NCBI GenBank assembly: GCA_030539275.1
Contig: JAUNSK010000011.1
Span: 1 to 64,000 of the forward strand
Direction: 5' to 3'
DNA: 64,000 nucleotides
Source: Oscillospiraceae bacterium
GTDB lineage: Bacteria > Bacillota > Clostridia > Oscillospirales > Ruminococcaceae
The translations under genes and the position numbers were made by a program. This document shows positions 147 through 15,089 of the stretch, piece after piece. The notes under the pieces are model-generated. The model searched no databases and was not told the origin of the DNA. It saw nothing but the letters and a program-made list of their open reading frames with translations. The first letter of the stretch is position 1. Each line of letters starts with the position of its first letter.

Positions 147-192
147 ATTATAGTATATTATATAAGACTATGGCAAAAAGGAAGGTTTTAAG

Positions 193-1011
193 TTGAACAA
201 TTACGACTTTACACAGTACGATATCATTGACGCACACGCTCACATTTTTCCTGACAAAATATTTCATAAGGCCACTGAGGCTATCGGTGACTTCTATCAT
301 CTTGCAATGGCAAGTGAAGGCAGCTCTGACCTTCTTCTTAAAAGCGGCTCTGAAATAAAAGTATCAAAATATCTTGTATGTTCTAGTGCCACTACTCCAA
401 GACAGACACAGAGCATTAATGACTATATTAGCGAACAATGCAAAAATCACAGCGAATTTATCGGATTCGGTACTCTCCATCCTGATATGACTGAGGATGA
501 GATACATTCAGAGCTTAAGAGGATAAGCGACTTAGGTCTCTGCGGCATTAAACTGCACCCTGACTTTCAGGACTTTGACATAGACTGCAAAGCTGCAGAT
601 AAGATCTACGATGCATTAGGTGACTCCATGCCTGTACTTATTCACATGGGCGACAAAAGATATCACCGCTCAAATCCTGCAAAGCTTAAAACCGTTCTCA
701 AACGCTTCTCTTCACTGCATGTTATGGCTGCACATCTTGGCGGTTATACCGAATGGGAAGAAGCATCTGATACACTTCGTGGTCTCAGTGAATATCTGAG
801 ATTTGATACAAGCAGCTCCCTATCCCTTATATCCCAGGATTATGCAAGAAAACTGATACTCGGATTCGGCATTGAAAACTGTTTCTGGGGCTCTGATTTT
901 CCTATGTGGACACATGAATCAGAATTCAGAAATCTTATTGATCTTGGTTTCAGTGAACAGGATAACAGAAAGATTTTTTCTGAGAATTTTAAGAATTACT
1001 TTAATATATGA
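193..1011 (+). CDS. Amidohydrolase family protein (metal-dependent TIM-barrel hydrolase)
   Basis: A 272-residue cytosolic protein of the amidohydrolase-2/TatD-like superfamily. Metal-ligand motifs are visible in the expected order: HAH at 15-17, a lysine in IKLHPDF (K120), His151 in IHMGDK, His181 in AHLGG and Asp235 in WGSDFP. Such proteins hydrolyse or decarboxylate small substrates; the substrate here cannot be told. The start is TTG, supported by AAGGAAGG about 7 bases upstream and no better ATG. Only 11 bases separate its stop from the MBOAT gene, so it is probably co-transcribed with the acyl-transfer genes, although a role in that pathway is inference. Confidence 0.85.
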   Translation: MNNYDFTQYDIIDAHAHIFPDKIFHKATEAIGDFYHLAMASEGSSDLLLKSGSEIKVSKYLVCSSATTPRQTQSINDYISEQCKNHSEFIGFGTLHPDMTEDEIHSELKRISDLGLCGIKLHPDFQDFDIDCKAADKIYDALGDSMPVLIHMGDKRYHRSNPAKLKTVLKRFSSLHVMAAHLGGYTEWEEASDTLRGLSEYLRFDTSSSLSLISQDYARKLILGFGIENCFWGSDFPMWTHESEFRNLIDLGFSEQDNRKIFSENFKNYFNI

Positions 1012-1022
1012 GGACCCGTTAA

Positions 1023-2426
1023 ATGGTATTTTCCAATCTGTTCTTTTTATACTTTTTTCTTTTTATTTTTCTGCTGTGCTACTATGCAGTGCCGGGGATT
1101 AAATCGAAAAATGCTTTACTCGTAGTATTCTCCCTGATTTTCTATGCGTGGGGAGAACCTGTTTATGTTCTTCTTTTGATAGCAAGCACTATATTAAACT
1201 ATATATCAGGTTTAGTGATAAGCAAATTCCGTGATCGTGTTCCGTCAAAAGCTGCCTTTGCAATGTCTCTTGTTATCAATATCGGCATGCTTATGGTTTT
1301 TAAATACAGTGCTTTTATTATTACTAATATAAACACATGGTTTTCTCTTGATATTCACGTTCCCGATATTTCACTCCCTATAGGCATAAGCTTTTATACT
1401 TTTCAGGCTATGTCCTATACTATTGACTGCTATTGGGATACGGTCAAGGTTCAGAAAAACTATTTTAAATTTCTTATGTACGTTTCACTGTTCCCGCAGC
1501 TCGTTGCCGGCCCTATCGTAAGATACAGCGATATTGAAAATGAGATCTCATCACGAACAATATCACATGCCGATATAAGCACGGGGATCACCAGAATTAC
1601 AATCGGGCTTGCTAAAAAAGCCATAATAGCGAATAATCTTTATACTGTAGTCAAGTCATTCTTCTCAAACGATATTTCTTCAGTTTCTGTAGCCGGAACA
1701 TGGTATGCAGTAACAATGTATGCATTATACGTGTACTTTGACTTTTCAGGTTATTCGGACATGGCAATCGGCCTTGGCAATCTGTTAGGTTTTCATTTCA
1801 ATGAAAACTTTAATTATCCGTTTATCTGCAAGGATGTTACGGAGTTCTGGCAGAGATGGCATATTTCACTCAGCACGTTCTTCAGGGATTATTTATTGTA
1901 CATACCGATTTTCGGAAAACGTCGCCAGACGCTCAACCTCTTTATTGTATGGTTCTGCACAGGACTCTGGCATGGTGCAAGCTGGAACTTTGTATTCTGG
2001 GGACTTTATTTCGGAATATTTATTTTTATAGAACAGCTCATCGGCAAAAAGAGAATCAAAAAAATTCCTCTTGTTATAAGACATATATACAATAAACTGG
2101 TTATAATTGTAGGCTTCGGAATTTTCTACTTTGAGGATCTCGGATCACTCGGAAACTTTTTTAAGAATCTTATAGGACTCAACAACAATGCTCTGATAGA
2201 TGATCACCTTCGCATATCAATTACAAACAACATATTTCTTATCATCGCTGCAATAGTAGCATCACTTCCTGTTTCACGTCTTTTCAGAGCTGACAACAAC
2301 TCAAGTCCTTTCAGGCTTTGTCTGATAGGAACAGCAAAAATTGCGTTTACACTTACCATTTTCATTATTTCCAGCATTCTGCTTGTAGACGCAACAAACA
2401 ACCCGTTTTTATATTTCAGATTTTAA
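1023..2426 (+). CDS. MBOAT family O-acyltransferase (AlgI/DltB-like)
   Basis: A 467-residue polytopic membrane protein with many hydrophobic segments from the N-terminus on. It carries the two MBOAT signatures: the WQRWHISLS block (His280) and the invariant His317 in GLWHGASWN. The family (AlgI, DltB, PatA) moves an acyl group from a cytosolic thioester donor to an acceptor outside the membrane. Its neighbours match this: an AlgX/DltD-like partner, an FkbH-type acyl-loading enzyme and an acyl carrier protein follow on the same strand. The acceptor is probably a cell-surface polymer, but nothing in the sequence names it. Confidence 0.93.
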   Translation: MVFSNLFFLYFFLFIFLLCYYAVPGIKSKNALLVVFSLIFYAWGEPVYVLLLIASTILNYISGLVISKFRDRVPSKAAFAMSLVINIGMLMVFKYSAFIITNINTWFSLDIHVPDISLPIGISFYTFQAMSYTIDCYWDTVKVQKNYFKFLMYVSLFPQLVAGPIVRYSDIENEISSRTISHADISTGITRITIGLAKKAIIANNLYTVVKSFFSNDISSVSVAGTWYAVTMYALYVYFDFSGYSDMAIGLGNLLGFHFNENFNYPFICKDVTEFWQRWHISLSTFFRDYLLYIPIFGKRRQTLNLFIVWFCTGLWHGASWNFVFWGLYFGIFIFIEQLIGKKRIKKIPLVIRHIYNKLVIIVGFGIFYFEDLGSLGNFFKNLIGLNNNALIDDHLRISITNNIFLIIAAIVASLPVSRLFRADNNSSPFRLCLIGTAKIAFTLTIFIISSILLVDATNNPFLYFRF

Positions 2427-2436
2427 GAAAATTTTT

Positions 2437-2464
2437 ATATCCGGTAATAATTCTTACCGGATAT
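2437..2464 (+). other. Intergenic hairpin between the MBOAT and AlgX-like genes
   Basis: Perfect 11-bp arms (2437-2447 and 2454-2464) around a 6-base loop. No T-run follows, so it is not a normal terminator. It may stabilise or process the polycistronic mRNA. Confidence 0.6.
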
Positions 2465-2501
2465 ATTATTATGCATCACATTCCTAAGGAGATTTTTTTA
2501 T

Positions 2502-3956
2502 ATGAATGATGATTTTCCAAATGATTTTAATAAAATTGATATAGATATAAGTATCCCGAAAAAGAAACTTACACGTGCTGAAAAGAATCAGAAAATTATA
2601 AGATTTTTTTCAAAAGCAAATATCGTGATCTTTGCATCTGTTTTTTCTGTTATCTCAATATATCTTATGGTCGGAAAACGACCGACTGTTTCTGAAACAG
2701 AAAACAGAACACTTGCAGAGTTCCCTGAGTTTACTGTACAGTCGCTTCTCAGCGGTAAATATACTGACAAAATAGAAGCATTTTACAATGATACAGTACC
2801 GGGAAGAAACAAATTCAAAAATTATGCTGCCTCAATAAAATCACACTGGGGCAGGGAATTTGACGGTATAAAAGTTCATACCATTAATAAGGGAGATAAT
2901 CAGAATACCGTTTCAAAGAAGCCTGCTGTAACGCAGGCAGTTACCACTGCTTCAACTACATCAATACCCGCCGCAACTGATTTGTCAAGTGATCAGATAA
3001 AGCAGACAACTCCTGCTGTTACAACTGTAGAAACTACCACCGTAACCCAGGCACCTATTCCTGAGGATGATCCGGCAGATGCAGGAGAACTCAGCAACAA
3101 CATTATGATCTATAAGAACAGAGGCATTCCGATATACTACGGAAGCTTTGATTCCGGAACAGAATATGCGTCTATTCTTAACAAATACAAGTCTGACCTC
3201 GGCGACAGTGTAAATCTGTATTCAATGGTCTGCCCTACTGCAATATCATTTTACTGGCCTCCAAGCTCTGATATTTCACATGGCAGTGAGAAAGACAATA
3301 TCAACAATATCAATGCGTCCCTGTCAGGTGTTACTCCTGTGAATATCATTGACACCCTTATGAATCACAGAAATGAACCAATTTATTCGAGAACTGATCA
3401 CCACTGGCAGCCAAGAGGCGCTTATTATGCAGCACAGGAATTTGCAAAACAGGCAAATGTCCCTTTTGACGATCTTTCAGAATATCAGGAGGTCGTAGTT
3501 CCCGGTTATGTCGGAACACTGTATGGCTTCTCCGGTGATGCAGCACTTAACGATAATCCGGAGGATTTTATATTCTACAGACCGGACAACAGCTACACCA
3601 CACACTACTATACTCCTTCTTTTGAATTTGAAAATGACGGCGAGCTTCTTGTAGAAGCATATGGCTCATCCATGTACTGTACATTTATGGGCGGCGATGA
3701 AAAAATTGTTCATATCGAAACTGACGCTCCTAATGATAAAACTCTTTTCATTATTAAAGACAGCTATGGCAATGCTCTCGTTCCGTTCCTTACAAATTCA
3801 TTTAAAAATATATTTGTCGTAGATATGAGATACTTTAATCTTAATATTATTTCGTTTATGAAAGAGCACCATGCAACTGACCTGTTATTTGCTATGAATA
3901 CATTCTCAGCAACAGGTTCGAACTATCTTTCACTTGAAACAATAAGAACCCAATAA
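2502..3956 (+). CDS. AlgX/DltD-like membrane-anchored SGNH-type protein (DHHW family)
   Basis: A 484-residue protein: short cytosolic N-terminus, one membrane anchor at about residues 36-56, a Thr/Pro-rich spacer around 130-190, then an extracellular catalytic-type domain. The DHHW motif is at 299-302 (TDHHW), and a candidate serine motif IKDSYGN lies further on. This is the layout of proteins that act after an MBOAT enzyme in alginate O-acetylation or teichoic acid D-alanylation, passing the acyl group to the extracellular acceptor. The start is ATG with AAGGAG upstream. It sits between the MBOAT and FkbH genes, the latter beginning just after its stop. Confidence 0.88.
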   Translation: MNDDFPNDFNKIDIDISIPKKKLTRAEKNQKIIRFFSKANIVIFASVFSVISIYLMVGKRPTVSETENRTLAEFPEFTVQSLLSGKYTDKIEAFYNDTVPGRNKFKNYAASIKSHWGREFDGIKVHTINKGDNQNTVSKKPAVTQAVTTASTTSIPAATDLSSDQIKQTTPAVTTVETTTVTQAPIPEDDPADAGELSNNIMIYKNRGIPIYYGSFDSGTEYASILNKYKSDLGDSVNLYSMVCPTAISFYWPPSSDISHGSEKDNINNINASLSGVTPVNIIDTLMNHRNEPIYSRTDHHWQPRGAYYAAQEFAKQANVPFDDLSEYQEVVVPGYVGTLYGFSGDAALNDNPEDFIFYRPDNSYTTHYYTPSFEFENDGELLVEAYGSSMYCTFMGGDEKIVHIETDAPNDKTLFIIKDSYGNALVPFLTNSFKNIFVVDMRYFNLNIISFMKEHHATDLLFAMNTFSATGSNYLSLETIRTQ

Positions 3957-3979
3957 TGCTTTATACAGAGGTAAAACAT

Positions 3980-5773
3980 ATGAACATATTGTCCTACCCA
4001 TTTGACGGGGATTACATATTAAAGCACAAAAAAGCTGTTAAAAAGCAGCTTCTTTCAGAAAATACAGGCAGAATCAAAATAAAAATTGCTGTACTCGGCG
4101 GTTCAACAACAAATGAGATTGTAAATATCATGGAGCTTTTTCTTCTGAGTTACGGACTTGAACCGGACTTTTATCAGTCAGAATATGCTCAGTACTGGCA
4201 GGATGCTGTTTTTTCCAGCCAGACCCTTGATGACTTTCATCCGGATCTGATATATATCCACACGACAAACAGAAACATTACTGAATTCAAAGCTGATATG
4301 ACACTGTCACAGGAACAGACTGATGAGGCAGTTATGAGGCAGTTCAGACATTTTGAGGAGGCATGGACAGCACTCAGCGACCGCTTCGGATGTCCGATAA
4401 TTCAGAATAACTTTGAAATGCCCTTTTACAGACTGCTTGGCAACAAGGATTCTACAGATCACAGAGGCCGTCTTAACTTCATAAACCGCCTGAATGTTAT
4501 GTTCGCAGAGTATGCTTCATCACATAAAAATTTCTACATCAATGATATCAACTATGTATCGGCATGCTTCGGTCTCGACAGATGGTCTGATATGCAGGTA
4601 TGGTACATGTACAAATATGCCCTTGCAATATCAGCCATTCCTGAACTGGCTTTCAATACTGCAAATATAATAAAATCGATCTACGGAAAAAATAAAAAAA
4701 TGCTGGTACTCGACCTTGACAACACTCTGTGGGGCGGAGTTATCGGTGATAATGGTGTAAATGGCATTGAAATAGGCCATGAAACCGGTATGGCTGAAGC
4801 ATATACAGGTTTTCAGGAGTATATAAAGGAACATAAGCAGCTTGGCGTACTTCTTGCAGTAAACTCAAAAAATGACCGTGAAAATGCCTTATCAGGTCTC
4901 AGACATCCTGATACTGTTCTCACAGAAGACGATTTTGTTACTATAAAAGCCAACTGGAACAACAAGGATGACAATATACTTGAAATAGCATCGGATGTAT
5001 CTATTCTGCCTGAAAGCTTCGTATTTGCCGATGACAATCCAGCTGAACGTGCTATTGTTGCGTCACAGGTTTCAGGAGTTTCCACACCTGAGCTTGATAC
5101 TGTTGAAAACTACATAAAAATTCTGGATAGGAATTCTTATTTTGAGCTTACTTCATATACCGCTGATGACGTAAAAAGAAATGATATGTACAAGGCAAAT
5201 CTACAACGTCTGCAGTCGATGAAGAAATTCTCAGATTATAACGAATATCTATTAAGTCTTGACATGAAAGCTCAGATAAGCGATTTTGAGCCTGTATATC
5301 TTGAACGTATCGTACAGCTTACAAACAAAAGCAACCAGTTCAATCTCACTACAAAACGATACACTATGGCAGAAATGTCAGATACATTTGAAAGTCCTGA
5401 TTACATACGTCTCTTTGGCAAGCTCACTGACAAGTACGGTGACAACGGCATAGTAAGCGTCGTGATCGGAGAAATAAAAAATACGCAGCTGCATATTGAC
5501 CTGTGGCTTATGAGCTGTCGTGTTCTGAAAAGGAATATGGAGTATGCAATGCTTGATGAACTGATAAGTCAGTGCAGCAAACGCGGCATCAGTGAAGTAT
5601 ATGGCTACTACTATAAAACTGCCAAAAACAGCATGGTTGAAAATCTGTACGGTGATTTCGGATTTATGCAGACAGAAAACAATGAAGACGGCAGCCGTGT
5701 ATTCAGGCTCTGCACCGATGACTATATGGGTAAAAATAAAGTAATTAAAGTTAATGATAACGGAGGAAATTAA
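3980..5773 (+). CDS. FkbH-like HAD-IIIC protein (acyl/glyceryl-ACP loading enzyme)
   Basis: A 597-residue three-part protein. An N-terminal SGNH-like region (GGST near residue 25) is followed by a HAD domain with LDLDNTLWGG (nucleophile Asp245, Asp247) and by a GNAT-like C-terminal domain holding the NKSNQFNLTTKRY block typical of FkbH proteins. Characterised FkbH enzymes take 1,3-bisphosphoglycerate, dephosphorylate it and load a glyceryl group on an acyl carrier protein. I chose the ATG at 3980 because AGAGGT lies 7 bases before it; an ATG at 3956 overlaps the previous stop and has no ribosome site. The ACP gene follows after one base. Confidence 0.88.
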   Translation: MNILSYPFDGDYILKHKKAVKKQLLSENTGRIKIKIAVLGGSTTNEIVNIMELFLLSYGLEPDFYQSEYAQYWQDAVFSSQTLDDFHPDLIYIHTTNRNITEFKADMTLSQEQTDEAVMRQFRHFEEAWTALSDRFGCPIIQNNFEMPFYRLLGNKDSTDHRGRLNFINRLNVMFAEYASSHKNFYINDINYVSACFGLDRWSDMQVWYMYKYALAISAIPELAFNTANIIKSIYGKNKKMLVLDLDNTLWGGVIGDNGVNGIEIGHETGMAEAYTGFQEYIKEHKQLGVLLAVNSKNDRENALSGLRHPDTVLTEDDFVTIKANWNNKDDNILEIASDVSILPESFVFADDNPAERAIVASQVSGVSTPELDTVENYIKILDRNSYFELTSYTADDVKRNDMYKANLQRLQSMKKFSDYNEYLLSLDMKAQISDFEPVYLERIVQLTNKSNQFNLTTKRYTMAEMSDTFESPDYIRLFGKLTDKYGDNGIVSVVIGEIKNTQLHIDLWLMSCRVLKRNMEYAMLDELISQCSKRGISEVYGYYYKTAKNSMVENLYGDFGFMQTENNEDGSRVFRLCTDDYMGKNKVIKVNDNGGN

Positions 5774-5774
5774 G

Positions 5775-6020
5775 ATGGAAAAACAGATGATAATCAAAAA
5801 ACTTACTGAAATATTCAAGGACGTATTTGACCTTGATGATGTTGTAATTACAGAAAACACTACAGCAGATGACATAGAAGAATGGGACAGTCTTGAACAC
5901 ATAAATCTGATAAATGCCGTTGAAAAAACCTTTAAAATGAGATTTAAAATGCCTGAGGTTTCTACAATGAAAAATGTCGGCGAAATGATTTCAATTATTG
6001 AAAGCAGATCAAAGCTGTAA
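5775..6020 (+). CDS. Acyl carrier protein
   Basis: An 81-residue acidic helical protein with the EEWDSLEHINL motif; Ser39 is the expected phosphopantetheine attachment site. The start at 5775 is set by GGAGG at 5762-5766 and lies one base past the FkbH stop. It is not a fatty-acid operon ACP by context: it closes the MBOAT/AlgX/FkbH operon and is the likely carrier of the acyl group, as DltC is in D-alanylation. Confidence 0.92.
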   Translation: MEKQMIIKKLTEIFKDVFDLDDVVITENTTADDIEEWDSLEHINLINAVEKTFKMRFKMPEVSTMKNVGEMISIIESRSKL

Positions 6021-6029
6021 TAAATAAAA

Positions 6030-6066
6030 AAATCTCTGTATGAAGAATTTTCATACAGAGATTTTT
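6030..6066. terminator. Bidirectional rho-independent terminator
   Basis: Arms of about 15 bp (6031-6045 and 6050-6064) flanked by A-run and T-run. It ends the acylation operon on the plus strand and the convergent gene at 6067 on the minus strand. Confidence 0.85.
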
Positions 6067-6600
6067 TTAAAACCCGAGTGCCAGGTAATCTTCCCTAATA
6101 AATCTGTGATAAGTAATACACAGACCTTCATCAGTAAGACAGTAATAATAATCATCCGGAACACCGTCCTCAAAGAAGATCAGATAGTCAAATTCTCCGT
6201 TATCGACCTCCTGAACATGCACATTTTCAGAGTATTTTCTGAAAACCTGAATAATATCAAGTTCTCTTGTTCCCCATTTACCTAAAACAGCAATGAACTC
6301 TTTAAGAAATTCACTTGGAGTTATATTATCATGTACATAATCAGCGCCTTTAGGAGGAACTTTCAAGCAGAACATACTGCCTGACTGTGTTATCTGGATT
6401 TTCCCGAATCTGTCGCTTATCTCATCAGTAAACTCTTCAAGTTTTGTATTCATCTCTTCAATACTGCAGTCGCATCCGGTTATGTTTTTTAATGATGTAA
6501 AGGAATAATTAAAAAGCATAGTATTGCTCTCATATCCCATTTTAAGCTGTGCTTCAAGTATCATGTCAGATAAATGTCTTTCAAGTTTTGCAGTATTCAT
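6067..6600 (-). CDS. Hypothetical protein, possibly DUF3877-like
   Basis: A 177-residue soluble acidic protein without signal or membrane segment. It may belong to DUF3877, a small family of unknown function in Clostridia, but that is from memory of the family's look. The start at 6600 is chosen because GGAGGT lies 5 bases before it; a longer frame reaching 6639 has no ribosome site. It is convergent with the acylation operon and divergent from the ECF sigma gene. Confidence 0.7.
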   Translation of the reverse strand: MNTAKLERHLSDMILEAQLKMGYESNTMLFNYSFTSLKNITGCDCSIEEMNTKLEEFTDEISDRFGKIQITQSGSMFCLKVPPKGADYVHDNITPSEFLKEFIAVLGKWGTRELDIIQVFRKYSENVHVQEVDNGEFDYLIFFEDGVPDDYYYCLTDEGLCITYHRFIREDYLALGF

Positions 6601-10725: not shown

Positions 10726-11655
10726 TTAAAAATATGCTTTAAAATATGCTGCAGCTGTTACAGCAGCAAAGGCTATCAATACCAGTGTTGCTTCTATAAG
10801 CATTATTATTATTACTGATACAATGCTTGTCCCGCCTTCTGACCTTACTCTGAATCTGTACTGAGCGCTGTCTTTCGAAGCCGCCCTGAATTTTTTAAGC
10901 TTGTTTATAGTATGTCTGTAATATATGTTGTTGGCAAATAATCCAAACAGAATCCTTGTGATAATATTACAGCTGTACAGAATACCTGCAAAAAGACCCT
11001 TAGTGTTGATATCTCCTGCAAATCCGGCAGTAACTGAGCCGAATCCTGCTAATGCATCAATAAATTCAGGTGTGGAAAAAACAAGACTGAGTAGTGTAAG
11101 AATTCCTGACCACAAATACATCTTTCTGCTCGCACAGTAATAGTTAGGAAAGAAAAAAGCAAAAATATTAAAAGAGATCTTTATGCCCGAACTGCGGATT
11201 CTTTTAAAAACTGACAGATAATAAAGCTTGTTGTTTTTAACATAATCTCCAACCTCGCCAAGTGTAACCGTTCCCTCATCATCCATCTTTTCATCAGGAT
11301 TCATACCAAAATACTGATCACTCAGATCAATTTTGATAAAATCTGCATCATTTAATCCGGGTTTAATATTTGCATCGTCCAGCCGTGCTCCGCATCCGGA
11401 ACACTCAGAAGCATCATGTGCATTTTGTTTGCTGCACCGGGGACAGATCTTTTCGTCCTTAACTTCTTCATTGTCATTGCACTGTGGTTTCCAGCTCTGA
11501 TGACTTTCATGCAGTTTTTCATTTATGCACCTGCCTGCTTCCTGATAGCAGCTCCTGTGATAAGGGGTGCCGCACTGCGGGCATACTACTATGTCATCTT
11601 CCTGGTCAAACTTTTTGCTGCATACAGTGCAGATTTCTCCGGAATATTTAGACAT
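10726..11655 (-). CDS. RING-like zinc-finger membrane protein
   Basis: About 309 residues. The N-terminus has a CxxC...CxxC...H...C pattern (ICTVCSKKF, VCPQCGTPYHRSCY) of the prokaryotic RING-like class, then a second zinc ribbon (ICPRCSKQN, CSGCGARL) near 75-95, and several membrane segments in the C-terminal half with a cytosolic zinc head. Function unknown. The ATG at 11655 is preferred over an in-frame TTG at 11676, though neither has a clear ribosome site. Confidence 0.75.
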   Translation of the reverse strand: MSKYSGEICTVCSKKFDQEDDIVVCPQCGTPYHRSCYQEAGRCINEKLHESHQSWKPQCNDNEEVKDEKICPRCSKQNAHDASECSGCGARLDDANIKPGLNDADFIKIDLSDQYFGMNPDEKMDDEGTVTLGEVGDYVKNNKLYYLSVFKRIRSSGIKISFNIFAFFFPNYYCASRKMYLWSGILTLLSLVFSTPEFIDALAGFGSVTAGFAGDINTKGLFAGILYSCNIITRILFGLFANNIYYRHTINKLKKFRAASKDSAQYRFRVRSEGGTSIVSVIIIMLIEATLVLIAFAAVTAAAYFKAYF

Positions 11656-11797
11656 TTTATCATTGTACCTGTTCAAGTTTGTTCAAATAACCATAAACGG
11701 ATACAACTTTCACACCTGCTCTCGTACAAATTTTTAGGTTCAGACAATGTTATTATATCATATCCTATTTTTTTTTTCAATATATGATTCAAACTAT

Positions 11798-13012: not shown

Positions 13013-13051
13013 AAATGCCTGAGCATCATACAGATGTTCAGGCATTTTTTT
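13013..13051. terminator. Rho-independent terminator after prfB, shared with the convergent gene
   Basis: AATGCCTGA (13014-13022) pairs with TCAGGCATT (13038-13046), followed by TTTTT on the plus strand and flanked by an A-run. Confidence 0.85.
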
Positions 13052-15089
13052 AATCCGGATGACTTTTCAGCACATCAAGTATCTGATCATAATTTGCAAC
13101 AAAAGCATCTACTACACGCGGATCAAAATGTTTTCCCCTGTCAGCCACAATTATATCATATGCCTTTTTCTCATTCATTGCCTCCTTATATGATCTTTTG
13201 CTTACAAGTGCATCATATACATCCGCAACAGCAACTATACGGCTGAAAAAATCTATCTGATCCCTGGCATATCCGAGATAACCTGATCCGTCCCATTTCT
13301 CATGATGCTGAAGTGCTATTGTTTTTGCCCTGTCCATCACTTTTCCGGGAGAATTGTGCATCAGACGTTCTCCCTCAGTAACATGTGTCTTTATTATATC
13401 AAATTCCTCAGGTGTCAGCTTTCCGGGCTTCTCAAGTATAGATGCAGGAATACTCAGCTTGCCGACATCATGCATCATTGATGCTATTCTCAGTGTCTCT
13501 ACGTCCTCATCACTCAGACCAAGACTCTTTCCCAGTACCCTGCTGTACTCAGATACACGCTTGACATGTCTTCCTGTCTGACCTGATTTTGACTCTGTTA
13601 TCTCTGCAAATGAGATTATCAGCTGTTCCTGTGTTCTGAGCATATCATCTGTAAGCTTTGAATTCTGTTCGTACAGTCTGCACATATTTTCATTGACCAA
13701 ACGGTAATTCACCTGTCGTCTGAGAGATTCAAAAGACGTGTTTATATATCTCATCCACCGTGGAAAGTACTGATTATATGTATCTGCTTTTCCGTCATAT
13801 TCAAGGACAGTATACCCGAAGCTCCTTTTGTAAAAATGAAACGGAGTAAAATAAAATACAGCCGGTTTATCACGCTCATCATACAGGTGAGGATATATTA
13901 TTTCTTTTTTAAAAACTATATTTGATTCTACAGGTTTGTCTTCCCTGCGTTTATCAAATATCATTTTCATTTCATCAGTATATCCTGTGTTTTCATCTGT
14001 CTCAAAATCCTCACCGTTGAGCAGGTCATCATTTATACATATAGAAAATCTGTCAAAGCCCTTAAGAAAGCAGGTATACCAGTCTACTGATGTCAGATAA
14101 TCCTTCAGATCTGATGATTTTATCATATTCTCATGCATAAAATCATACAGGGTTAAAAAGCCGCCCGTATCGTCAATATACTCAAAGCCTTTATTTACAT
14201 ATTTTTTTAGTTCTTCCGGCTTCTTTTTACATCCGCATGTATCTCCTATGGTGATATTTTTATCATTATTTTCATATGGTACATATTTATCAGAGTTGAT
14301 AAGAGATACTATTTTTCTTGCAGCATTTATTCCGGTAGTATGTATATCCCTGGCATATGACGTAAGAACTCCTGACTTATAAATACGTTCTCCGTCAGCA
14401 TCAAATCCCGCAAATGCAATATCATCCGGAATTTTCACTCCCTTTTTTTCAAGTGCACTCATTATTCCCAGAGCCATAGGTTCATTTGCACATACTACTG
14501 CATCAGGAAGCTTGTCACGATTGAGTATTTTTGAAGCATAATCCGGACCGACATCATACCAGAAGTCACCGTATATAACATTTTTATCATCATATACAAG
14601 GCCATGATTTTCAAGTGAAGTTCGGTATCCGTTTATTCTCATAATTGAATGAGGATGTCCTTCAAATCCGGCGATAAAAAGTATATCCTTATATCCATGC
14701 TCTTCTATAAGATGATCTACAACCAGCTGCATTCCCTTTTCGTCATCCGTCATTATAGTTTCATATCTGGTATCTGTATAATCAACACAAATTGTAGGCT
14801 TACTGCACTTTTTATGAATATCGTCAAGAAATCTTCTGGTTTTATCAACTGTAAGGGCCAGAGTATCCGGAACAAGTACCAGCCCGTCAAGCCTGTCATA
14901 ATTAATAAGAGAGATGATATTGTATTCACCGCTGATATGGTCCTCTTCCATGCCGTTCCTGCACAGAGGAGTAAACACCGCAACATCACAATCTGCTTTT
15001 AGCATCTGCGGCAGAAAACTGCTGATAAACCTTTTCTGATAAGGCGGAGTTACATCTGAGATAACTACTCCGATCAGTTTTCTTTTCAT
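13050..15089 (-). CDS. LacI-type sensor domain fused to an HD-GYP domain
   Basis: A 679-residue cytosolic protein. Residues 1-285 form a periplasmic-binding-protein-like ligand domain as in LacI regulators, but no helix-turn-helix precedes it. A middle region of unknown fold (285-480) follows, then an HD-GYP domain from about 490: HDVGK at 540-544 and HHEKWDGSGYLG at 595-606. The fingerprint GYP is GYL here. HD-GYP domains break down c-di-GMP. The build suggests a ligand-controlled phosphodiesterase. It has its own consensus promoter and no partner genes. Confidence 0.82.
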   Translation of the reverse strand: MKRKLIGVVISDVTPPYQKRFISSFLPQMLKADCDVAVFTPLCRNGMEEDHISGEYNIISLINYDRLDGLVLVPDTLALTVDKTRRFLDDIHKKCSKPTICVDYTDTRYETIMTDDEKGMQLVVDHLIEEHGYKDILFIAGFEGHPHSIMRINGYRTSLENHGLVYDDKNVIYGDFWYDVGPDYASKILNRDKLPDAVVCANEPMALGIMSALEKKGVKIPDDIAFAGFDADGERIYKSGVLTSYARDIHTTGINAARKIVSLINSDKYVPYENNDKNITIGDTCGCKKKPEELKKYVNKGFEYIDDTGGFLTLYDFMHENMIKSSDLKDYLTSVDWYTCFLKGFDRFSICINDDLLNGEDFETDENTGYTDEMKMIFDKRREDKPVESNIVFKKEIIYPHLYDERDKPAVFYFTPFHFYKRSFGYTVLEYDGKADTYNQYFPRWMRYINTSFESLRRQVNYRLVNENMCRLYEQNSKLTDDMLRTQEQLIISFAEITESKSGQTGRHVKRVSEYSRVLGKSLGLSDEDVETLRIASMMHDVGKLSIPASILEKPGKLTPEEFDIIKTHVTEGERLMHNSPGKVMDRAKTIALQHHEKWDGSGYLGYARDQIDFFSRIVAVADVYDALVSKRSYKEAMNEKKAYDIIVADRGKHFDPRVVDAFVANYDQILDVLKSHPD

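Follow-up and report, generated by a model that had tools for sequence, protein, structure and literature searches.

An FkbH-acyl carrier protein module joined to an MBOAT-DHHW pair in an Oscillospiraceae genome: a proposed system for glyceryl transfer to a surface polymer

The first 64,000 nucleotides of contig JAUNSK010000011.1 from an Oscillospiraceae bacterium, hereafter the window, carry at positions 1023-6020 of the + strand four tightly ordered genes with intact motifs, which encode an MBOAT O-acyltransferase, a DHHW-type outer transferase, an FkbH-type acyl loader and a dedicated acyl carrier protein (ACP). We consider it reasonably probable that they form one system, in which FkbH would load a glyceryl group, the ACP would carry it, MBOAT would relay it through a tyrosine and the DHHW protein would transfer it to a surface polymer. 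That the FkbH-loaded ACP feeds the MBOAT-DHHW relay is highly probable; that it moves glyceryl, and does so onto a surface glycan, is favoured with more reserve, by analogy with the families concerned. Each of the single machines is known, but the four-part combination appears to be new and, in the portions of the literature available, seems not to have been described.

Open reading frame (ORF) listing and profile searches gave five + strand genes over 193-6020, all of them at the positions assigned by a sequence-only reading of the same DNA. The first gene of the unit encodes an amidohydrolase_2 protein (193-1011; PF04909, 79.3 bits, cut-off 26.4) and lies 11 bases ahead of the MBOAT gene (1023-2426; PF03062, 78.4 bits, cut-off 27). 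After 75 bases follows the gene for the DHHW/AlgX-like SGNH acyltransferase (2502-3956; PF14286, 166.3 bits, cut-off 25; ALGX, 28 bits, cut-off 26.5), which overlaps by 1 base that of FkbH (3956-5773; TIGR01686, 270.4 bits, cut-off 146.65; FkbH_N, 46.2 bits, cut-off 27). The latter overlaps the ACP gene (5754-6020; PF00550, 23.6 bits, cut-off 20.8) by 20 bases if 5754 is the ACP start. The active-site residues, which the sequence-only reading had called intact, were confirmed as such in MBOAT (H280, H317), DHHW (S421), FkbH (D253, D255) and the ACP; the phosphopantetheine serine that it had numbered Ser39 bears this number if the second ATG is the start, and is Ser46 if the start is at 5754.

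The order of these genes is widely conserved. When 84,980 species genomes were scanned with a pattern, 254 stretches proved to encode an FkbH relative, and among the best 80 of them 43 have at least 4.5 kb upstream and at least 1 kb downstream; genes were counted up to 6 kb away on the FkbH strand. An ACP was present in 43/43 of these loci and an MBOAT in 41/43, so that conservation beyond this genome, set beforehand as a test, was found. The order MBOAT-DHHW-FkbH-ACP occurs in 33 and FkbH-ACP-MBOAT in seven, two have no MBOAT, and in one (L078) MBOAT is 4.3 kb upstream with no DHHW gene. Clustering of frames of at least 110 aa in loci L001-L081, a length for which ACPs are too short, gave no conserved fifth gene, that is, no group in more than 25 of the 81 loci beyond FkbH, DHHW, MBOAT and antisense frames. 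With the own genome included, an FkbH match was found in 76 of 197 genomes of an evenly drawn family sample and in 13 of 299 genomes of a phylum sample (10 over the cut-off). From the family, the majority of the long matches and a small number of weak ones were taken. Of 68 loci counted, 26 are MBOAT-linked, 26 are linked to MaoC-like and/or GNAT-like genes, and 16 to neither, several of the last ending at contig breaks and one (L001) being a short piece of the window itself.

Trees were built for both proteins; in that of MBOAT (LG+G4, SH-aLRT support), the rows lacking FkbH were picked by hand from the top of the family MBOAT matches. In a 46-row FkbH clade (support 97), 38 rows are MBOAT-linked, 26 with the MBOAT upstream and 12 with it downstream (11 distinct, L067 and L149 being identical), two have DHHW only and six have other neighbours. 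The downstream MBOATs accompany an outer protein of another type, for which Pfam has no name (profile SG071), and fall outside the branch (support 100) to which every upstream MBOAT but that of L208 belongs; therefore, one FkbH lineage has partnered at least two lineages of MBOAT, an argument for a functional link. This repeated recruitment is our best argument that the FkbH product would feed MBOAT. Distant cassettes include ACP-FkbH-MBOAT-hypothetical-VOC near sulfotransferase genes on a plasmid of Rhodobacteraceae bacterium SC52 (L119) and VOC-MBOAT-unnamed protein-ACP-FkbH on Sinorhizobium meliloti pSymB (L116); the unnamed proteins of such cassettes have no Pfam match and look SGNH-like by eye. 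In the pSymB record of S. meliloti 1021 the FkbH gene is split in two frames (L116:11644-13751), and in the 2011 record it is one piece.

The MBOAT tree holds a clade of 36 rows (SH-aLRT 100), in which 25 have FkbH beside them and six have a close FkbH elsewhere in the genome. In four of these six genomes (G132, G162, G071 and G099) an ACP adjoins FkbH; the two stretches of G099 each run into a contig break and may be one operon. Two further rows (L226, L227) have an ACP beside the pair and a distant FkbH elsewhere, and three have neither. Outside the clade stand the own-genome paralogue and nine pairs from genomes without an FkbH match, none of which shows an ACP within the stretch read in a six-frame check. 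By the same check, an ACP follows MBOAT-DHHW in 2 of the 20 stretches read, among which L235 is only 4.6 kb long and has no DHHW gene and L243 breaks off where its DHHW gene ends. The two positive stretches, L226:7272-10940 (G188) and L227:5107-8721 (G108), have the order MBOAT-DHHW-ACP without adjoining FkbH, and the FkbH of these genomes is of a more distant type and lies elsewhere; that of G188 is of the 3SLR/BF1531 kind (E 3.7e-115) and sits beside an ABC-transporter-like gene. The presence of the ACP tracks FkbH dependence and not the MBOAT-DHHW pair. The second MBOAT-DHHW pair of the own genome has no FkbH or ACP in 8.1 kb, but this stretch ends with the contig 70 bases past DHHW and further genes beyond are therefore possible.

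FkbH of the window is composed of FkbH_N, HAD-IIIC and a C-terminal SCR region, with D253, D255, K305, K337, D359, D360 and C521 in place. Besides its TIGR01686 score, it has the DxDxT and DD motifs of the HAD domain and the C-terminal SCR cysteine that characterize FkbH loaders. In an alignment with 27 others, polyketide-cluster proteins included, 12 residues are identical in all 28 rows (D253, D255, T257, W334, K337, D359, D360, D492, S520, C521, R522 and N558); position 305 is K or R, and S304 is replaced by T in one row (L222). The same residues are invariant in a closer set of 52 FkbH proteins, and S304 is nearly so. In FkbH proteins this cysteine carries the glyceryl group, and Cys521 would probably do so here. 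At E 1e-3 the protein is the single match in its own genome, and its profile found one solved relative, 3SLR (BF1531; E 1.7e-49), an entry titled uncharacterized protein whose chain of 387 residues ends where the C-terminal part of FkbH would begin. The serine pattern of the ACP was found in 131 of 141 ACP frames, and all five misses displayed keep Asp-Ser. FkbH proteins are described as loading glyceryl groups in the excerpts available of PMC7489565 and PMC8949500; from the family we infer that the FkbH of the window would transfer glyceryl from 1,3-bisphosphoglycerate to the ACP.

Both histidine motifs of MBOAT (H280, H317) align with those of the DltB chains 6BUG and 8JEM, and the WHG and [RK]W[HN] motifs were found in 92/92 distinct MBOATs of the collected loci; in S. 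meliloti an Asn takes the position equivalent to H280 of the window. The protein ends in the hexapeptide FLYFRF, with its tyrosine (Y464) four residues from the end, as in acyl-shuttle MBOATs. Of the distinct MBOAT frames of those loci that reach a stop, 92/92 have a tyrosine at this position, as have 20/20 further family MBOATs. In a 2023 paper, MBOAT proteins are reported to hand the acyl group to a tyrosine in a hexapeptide of this kind, which lies on DltX in Dlt and is fused to MBOAT elsewhere. We presume that the hexapeptide of the window is the same motif; Y464 would thus be a putative acyl-shuttle tyrosine.

In the DHHW protein, a hydrophobic stretch near the N-terminus, read by eye as an anchor, precedes the motifs D299-H300-H301-W302, S421 and D441-M-R443-Y444, and the D[HT]H[WH] motif is kept in 99 of 101 DHHW frames of the collected loci. 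The closest solved relatives are 4NZK of Eubacterium siraeum (E 2.3e-69), an entry titled uncharacterized protein, and PatB1 of Bacillus cereus (5V8D, E 2.9e-16). According to the accessible passages of PMC9487903, PatB1 has the same kinds of motif block (DHHW, serine and DxRY), and 4NZK is EUBSIR_00411, with a solved structure and no biochemical characterization. Over 352 aligned residues 4NZK is identical to a DHHW protein of a locus in G132 in which two DHHW genes stand ahead of FkbH-ACP (L142:8949-11339), the best MBOAT match of that genome being elsewhere. Therefore, a structure exists for an outer transferase of this system.

On these grounds, the following mechanism is proposed. FkbH would take a glyceryl group from D-1,3-bisphosphoglycerate, with the HAD domain stripping the phosphate, and would probably hold it on Cys521 before loading it onto the dedicated ACP. 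At the cytoplasmic side, His317 of MBOAT would accept the acyl group from the ACP thioester and pass it to Tyr464 in the enzyme's own FLYFRF motif at the outer face, where Ser421 of the DHHW protein would take it and esterify a hydroxyl group on a surface polymer, for which a wall glycan is the probable candidate. In this scheme, FkbH-ACP would be a donor module joined to an MBOAT-DHHW pair of the acetyl-moving kind. The glyceryl chemistry, the tyrosine relay and the direction of transfer are predicted from the protein families. The transfer scheme of the sequence-only reading agrees with these steps except that it left out the relay on the C-terminal tyrosine of MBOAT.

That reading had labelled the operon Dlt-like. 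Its logic of loading, carrying and handing on fits the residues, the gene order and the conservation; in the family tests the pair is of the PatA1/PatB1 kind. The set shares with the DltABCDX system a carrier protein, an MBOAT with both histidine motifs, an outer SGNH transferase and the tyrosine hexapeptide, which in Dlt is on DltX. However, the unit has no adenylating DltA, DHHW replaces DltD, and the hexapeptide is on MBOAT itself. Membership in Dlt was rejected on three tests: no DltA lies in the unit, and the best TIGR01734 match of the genome, inside a 1655-aa frame, reached 261.6 bits against a cut-off of 559.85; MBOAT scored 156.5 bits with the DltB model, below its cut-off of 375; and by Pfam the outer transferase gave no DltD-family match, but DHHW and ALGX. 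Complementarity between the two systems was not used as an argument, DltB being over its cut-off in 8 of 197 genomes and accompanied by FkbH only in G056 (6% contaminated), with about 3 expected by chance.

By contrast, the adjacent MBOAT and DHHW genes with catalytic motifs kept are what defines a pair of the PatA1/PatB1 type, the same two families adjoin in B. cereus, and the DHHW protein aligns with PatB1. In the consulted parts of the sources, PatA1/PatB1 carry out O-acetylation of a secondary cell wall polymer (PMC9487903) and CcsH/CcsI of Clostridioides difficile are proposed to O-acetylate cellulose (PMC7710045); both are described there as moving acetyl, and no FkbH or ACP partner is named, whereas the set of the window adds both. 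By family tests, it would be a PatA1/PatB1-like pair with an added FkbH-ACP donor module rather than a Dlt system. The FkbH modules of polyketide, tetronate and nonribosomal peptide synthetase pathways share with it the FkbH residues and a neighbouring ACP, but the window has MBOAT and DHHW neighbours and no methoxymalonyl or KSIII partners. A methoxymalonyl-ACP or tetronate cassette was rejected, since dehydrogenases and KSIII are absent from the unit and present beside reference FkbH proteins: L219 and L223 belong to methoxymalonyl-type operons (3-hydroxyacyl-CoA dehydrogenase, ACP, acyl-CoA dehydrogenase, HAD-IIIC), and L216, L217 and L221 adjoin a KSIII gene and an ACP.

The open-licence literature, in the portions available, held no description of FkbH with MBOAT at the cell surface; an account in a subscription journal is possible. 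An excerpt of a paper on aeruginosin-type peptides names FkbH and MBOAT in separate steps, and one on Campylobacter flagellar glycans names the fkbH-domain gene cj1302. Glyceryl esters are reported on the Sphingomonas polysaccharides gellan and welan (PMC4432689, PMC9104527), that of gellan since a 1986 reference in PMC4432689. The excerpts of these two papers name no transferase gene for the glyceryl group, a negative given without any search of Sphingomonas genomes, and no gene system for polysaccharide glyceryl esters was found in the accessible open-licence texts.

Several observations weigh against the proposed system. Its direct support consists of genes, motifs, conservation and repeated pairing, and the chemistry is inferred. 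The trees are quick, without bootstrap and with long branches. A clade-type MBOAT was found in 33 of the 197 family genomes (31 at E 1e-150 or better and two truncated at 58-59%), and an FkbH match accompanies it in 30/33 vs. 46/164 of the others. This association (Fisher p 1e-11) speaks for the system, but the test ignores shared ancestry and its cut-off was chosen after the list was seen. Moreover, the three genomes of the clade with neither FkbH match nor ACP are G016 (55% complete), G113 (99%) and G192 (98%); the last two, which are well assembled, show no ACP beside the MBOAT-DHHW pair in a six-frame check, and therefore the pair can use another donor or was left behind. In a sister FkbH clade, 27 of 33 rows have a MaoC-like gene, a GNAT-like gene or both linked to them, and in L118 FkbH-ACP lies beside a WcbI-type gene. 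Since the sister clade serves something else, FkbH-ACP alone is not proof of surface acylation. In addition, a simple DHHW serine-block pattern fits 83 of the 101 DHHW frames, and no glycan cluster that would name the polymer lies beside the cassette. Most of L168-L199, together with L117, represent this sister clade; instead of MBOAT-DHHW they have, after FkbH-ACP, a MaoC-like gene and a GNAT-like gene, the latter without a Pfam name.

The alternative that survives best, though we regard it as unlikely, keeps the same relay and changes its cargo, the group being another three-carbon acyl (lactyl or phosphoglyceryl) or a glyceryl-ACP altered before transfer. A MaoC-like gene directly after MBOAT and the outer protein in L052 and L073 would fit such editing of a hydroxyacyl thioester, and so would a VOC gene that adjoins FkbH-ACP at nine distinct places, five on the FkbH strand (L208:7216-7626, L116:7656-8333, L067:12029-12427, L158:4390-4791 and L204:3398-3838) and four on the opposite one (L049, L070, L075 and L078); a further VOC gene is given by annotation at L119:11909-12337. 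The cassette of the window, however, has neither gene, and its FkbH keeps the residues common to the reference set. The VOC protein is of the Glyoxalase_4 family, often with MBOAT nearby as well as FkbH-ACP. Inversion of a glyceryl thioester at C2 might be its role; this is a guess, because methylmalonyl-CoA epimerase ranks only after glyoxalase-I and lactoylglutathione lyase among its best solved relatives.

It is less likely again that MBOAT-DHHW carries out ordinary O-acetylation from acetyl-CoA and that FkbH-ACP is a separate pathway sharing the operon. In the family it is common for an MBOAT-DHHW pair to stand without an ACP (18 of the 20 stretches, some cut by contig ends), the own genome has one as far as its contig end, and FkbH-ACP without MBOAT exists in the MaoC/GNAT clade. 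Against this, the two stay together in 41 of 43 loci, at least two MBOAT lineages were paired with one FkbH lineage, and the ACP has been kept with MBOAT-DHHW in G188 and G108 though FkbH is elsewhere. Least probable is a correct relay onto a lipid, a secreted small molecule or a protein glycan instead of a wall glycan: no acceptor gene lies beside the cassette, and in each of the 43 FkbH-bearing genomes that were searched the query found two or more MBOATs, with split matches counted, so several acceptors may exist per cell, but other cassettes adjoin sulfotransferase (L119), glycosyltransferase-like (L208, by eye) and capsule-export-like (L116, by eye) genes, and the characterised DHHW protein PatB1 acts on a secondary wall polymer in the available part of PMC9487903.

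A broader and more tentative idea, which we rate well below the four-gene system itself, is that FkbH-ACP is a swappable module that would turn MBOAT shuttles from acetyl to glyceryl across phyla, with add-on genes editing the group on the carrier. Of these, a VOC protein (glyoxalase/methylmalonyl-CoA epimerase fold) could turn it into L-glyceryl by inversion at C2, and a MaoC-like dehydratase could convert it to pyruvyl, from which lactyl would follow. If true, the idea would supply the genetic basis that is missing for glyceryl esters of bacterial polysaccharides, that of gellan included, and perhaps for some lactyl ones. Most of what is known about surface acylation in bacteria concerns acetyl and D-alanyl. 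A conserved set drawing on 1,3-bisphosphoglycerate would tie surface decoration to glycolytic flux, and would couple surface chemistry to glycolysis without an ATP-using ligase. Its hosts are bacteria from gut and rumen samples and a genetically tractable plant symbiont. Since no gene system was found in the accessible papers for the long-known glyceryl esters, an old open question thereby becomes testable.

The amidohydrolase, which the sequence-only reading had placed in the operon in front of the four genes, is a neighbour and was rejected as a core part. It lies outside the conserved set because its profile found across 215 loci only two frames, the window's own and that of a close relative (L064). 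It is absent from the 4 kb ahead of MBOAT in a genome of the same genus (G096, L137), left no trace in the 416 bases between contig end and MBOAT in G181 (L136), and gave no relative of solved structure at E 1e-3.

Upstream, the sequence ends at the edge of contig C36 of the 3.68-Mb genome, since the window opens at contig base 1. A consensus scan gave a promoter-like site at 118-146 on the + strand (TTGATT-17-TACAAT, 9/12 matches), which is weak alone given that 40 such sites, consensus matches only, were found in the window vs. 23.7 expected. The sequence AGGAAGG at 179-185 (+) is a ribosome-binding sequence 7 nt ahead of the TTG start at 193, and a terminator-like hairpin of 20 pairs, a strand-neutral stem listed as −, lies at 6025-6069 ahead of a convergent DUF3877 gene. 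As consensus matches, these three signals would bracket the five-gene unit. A 12-pair hairpin with a T-rich tail at 2436-2465 separates the MBOAT gene from that of DHHW and could act as an attenuator for what lies downstream; it is impossible in L064, where the two frames are only 6 bases apart. Elsewhere in the window, a − strand gene at 13050-15089 encodes a candidate sugar-sensing phosphodiesterase, in which an HD domain (HD_5) is fused to a sugar-binding domain of LacI type, and the product of another at 10726-11676 (−) combines a prokaryotic RING finger (Prok-RING_1) with a zinc ribbon and a DUF2628 region.

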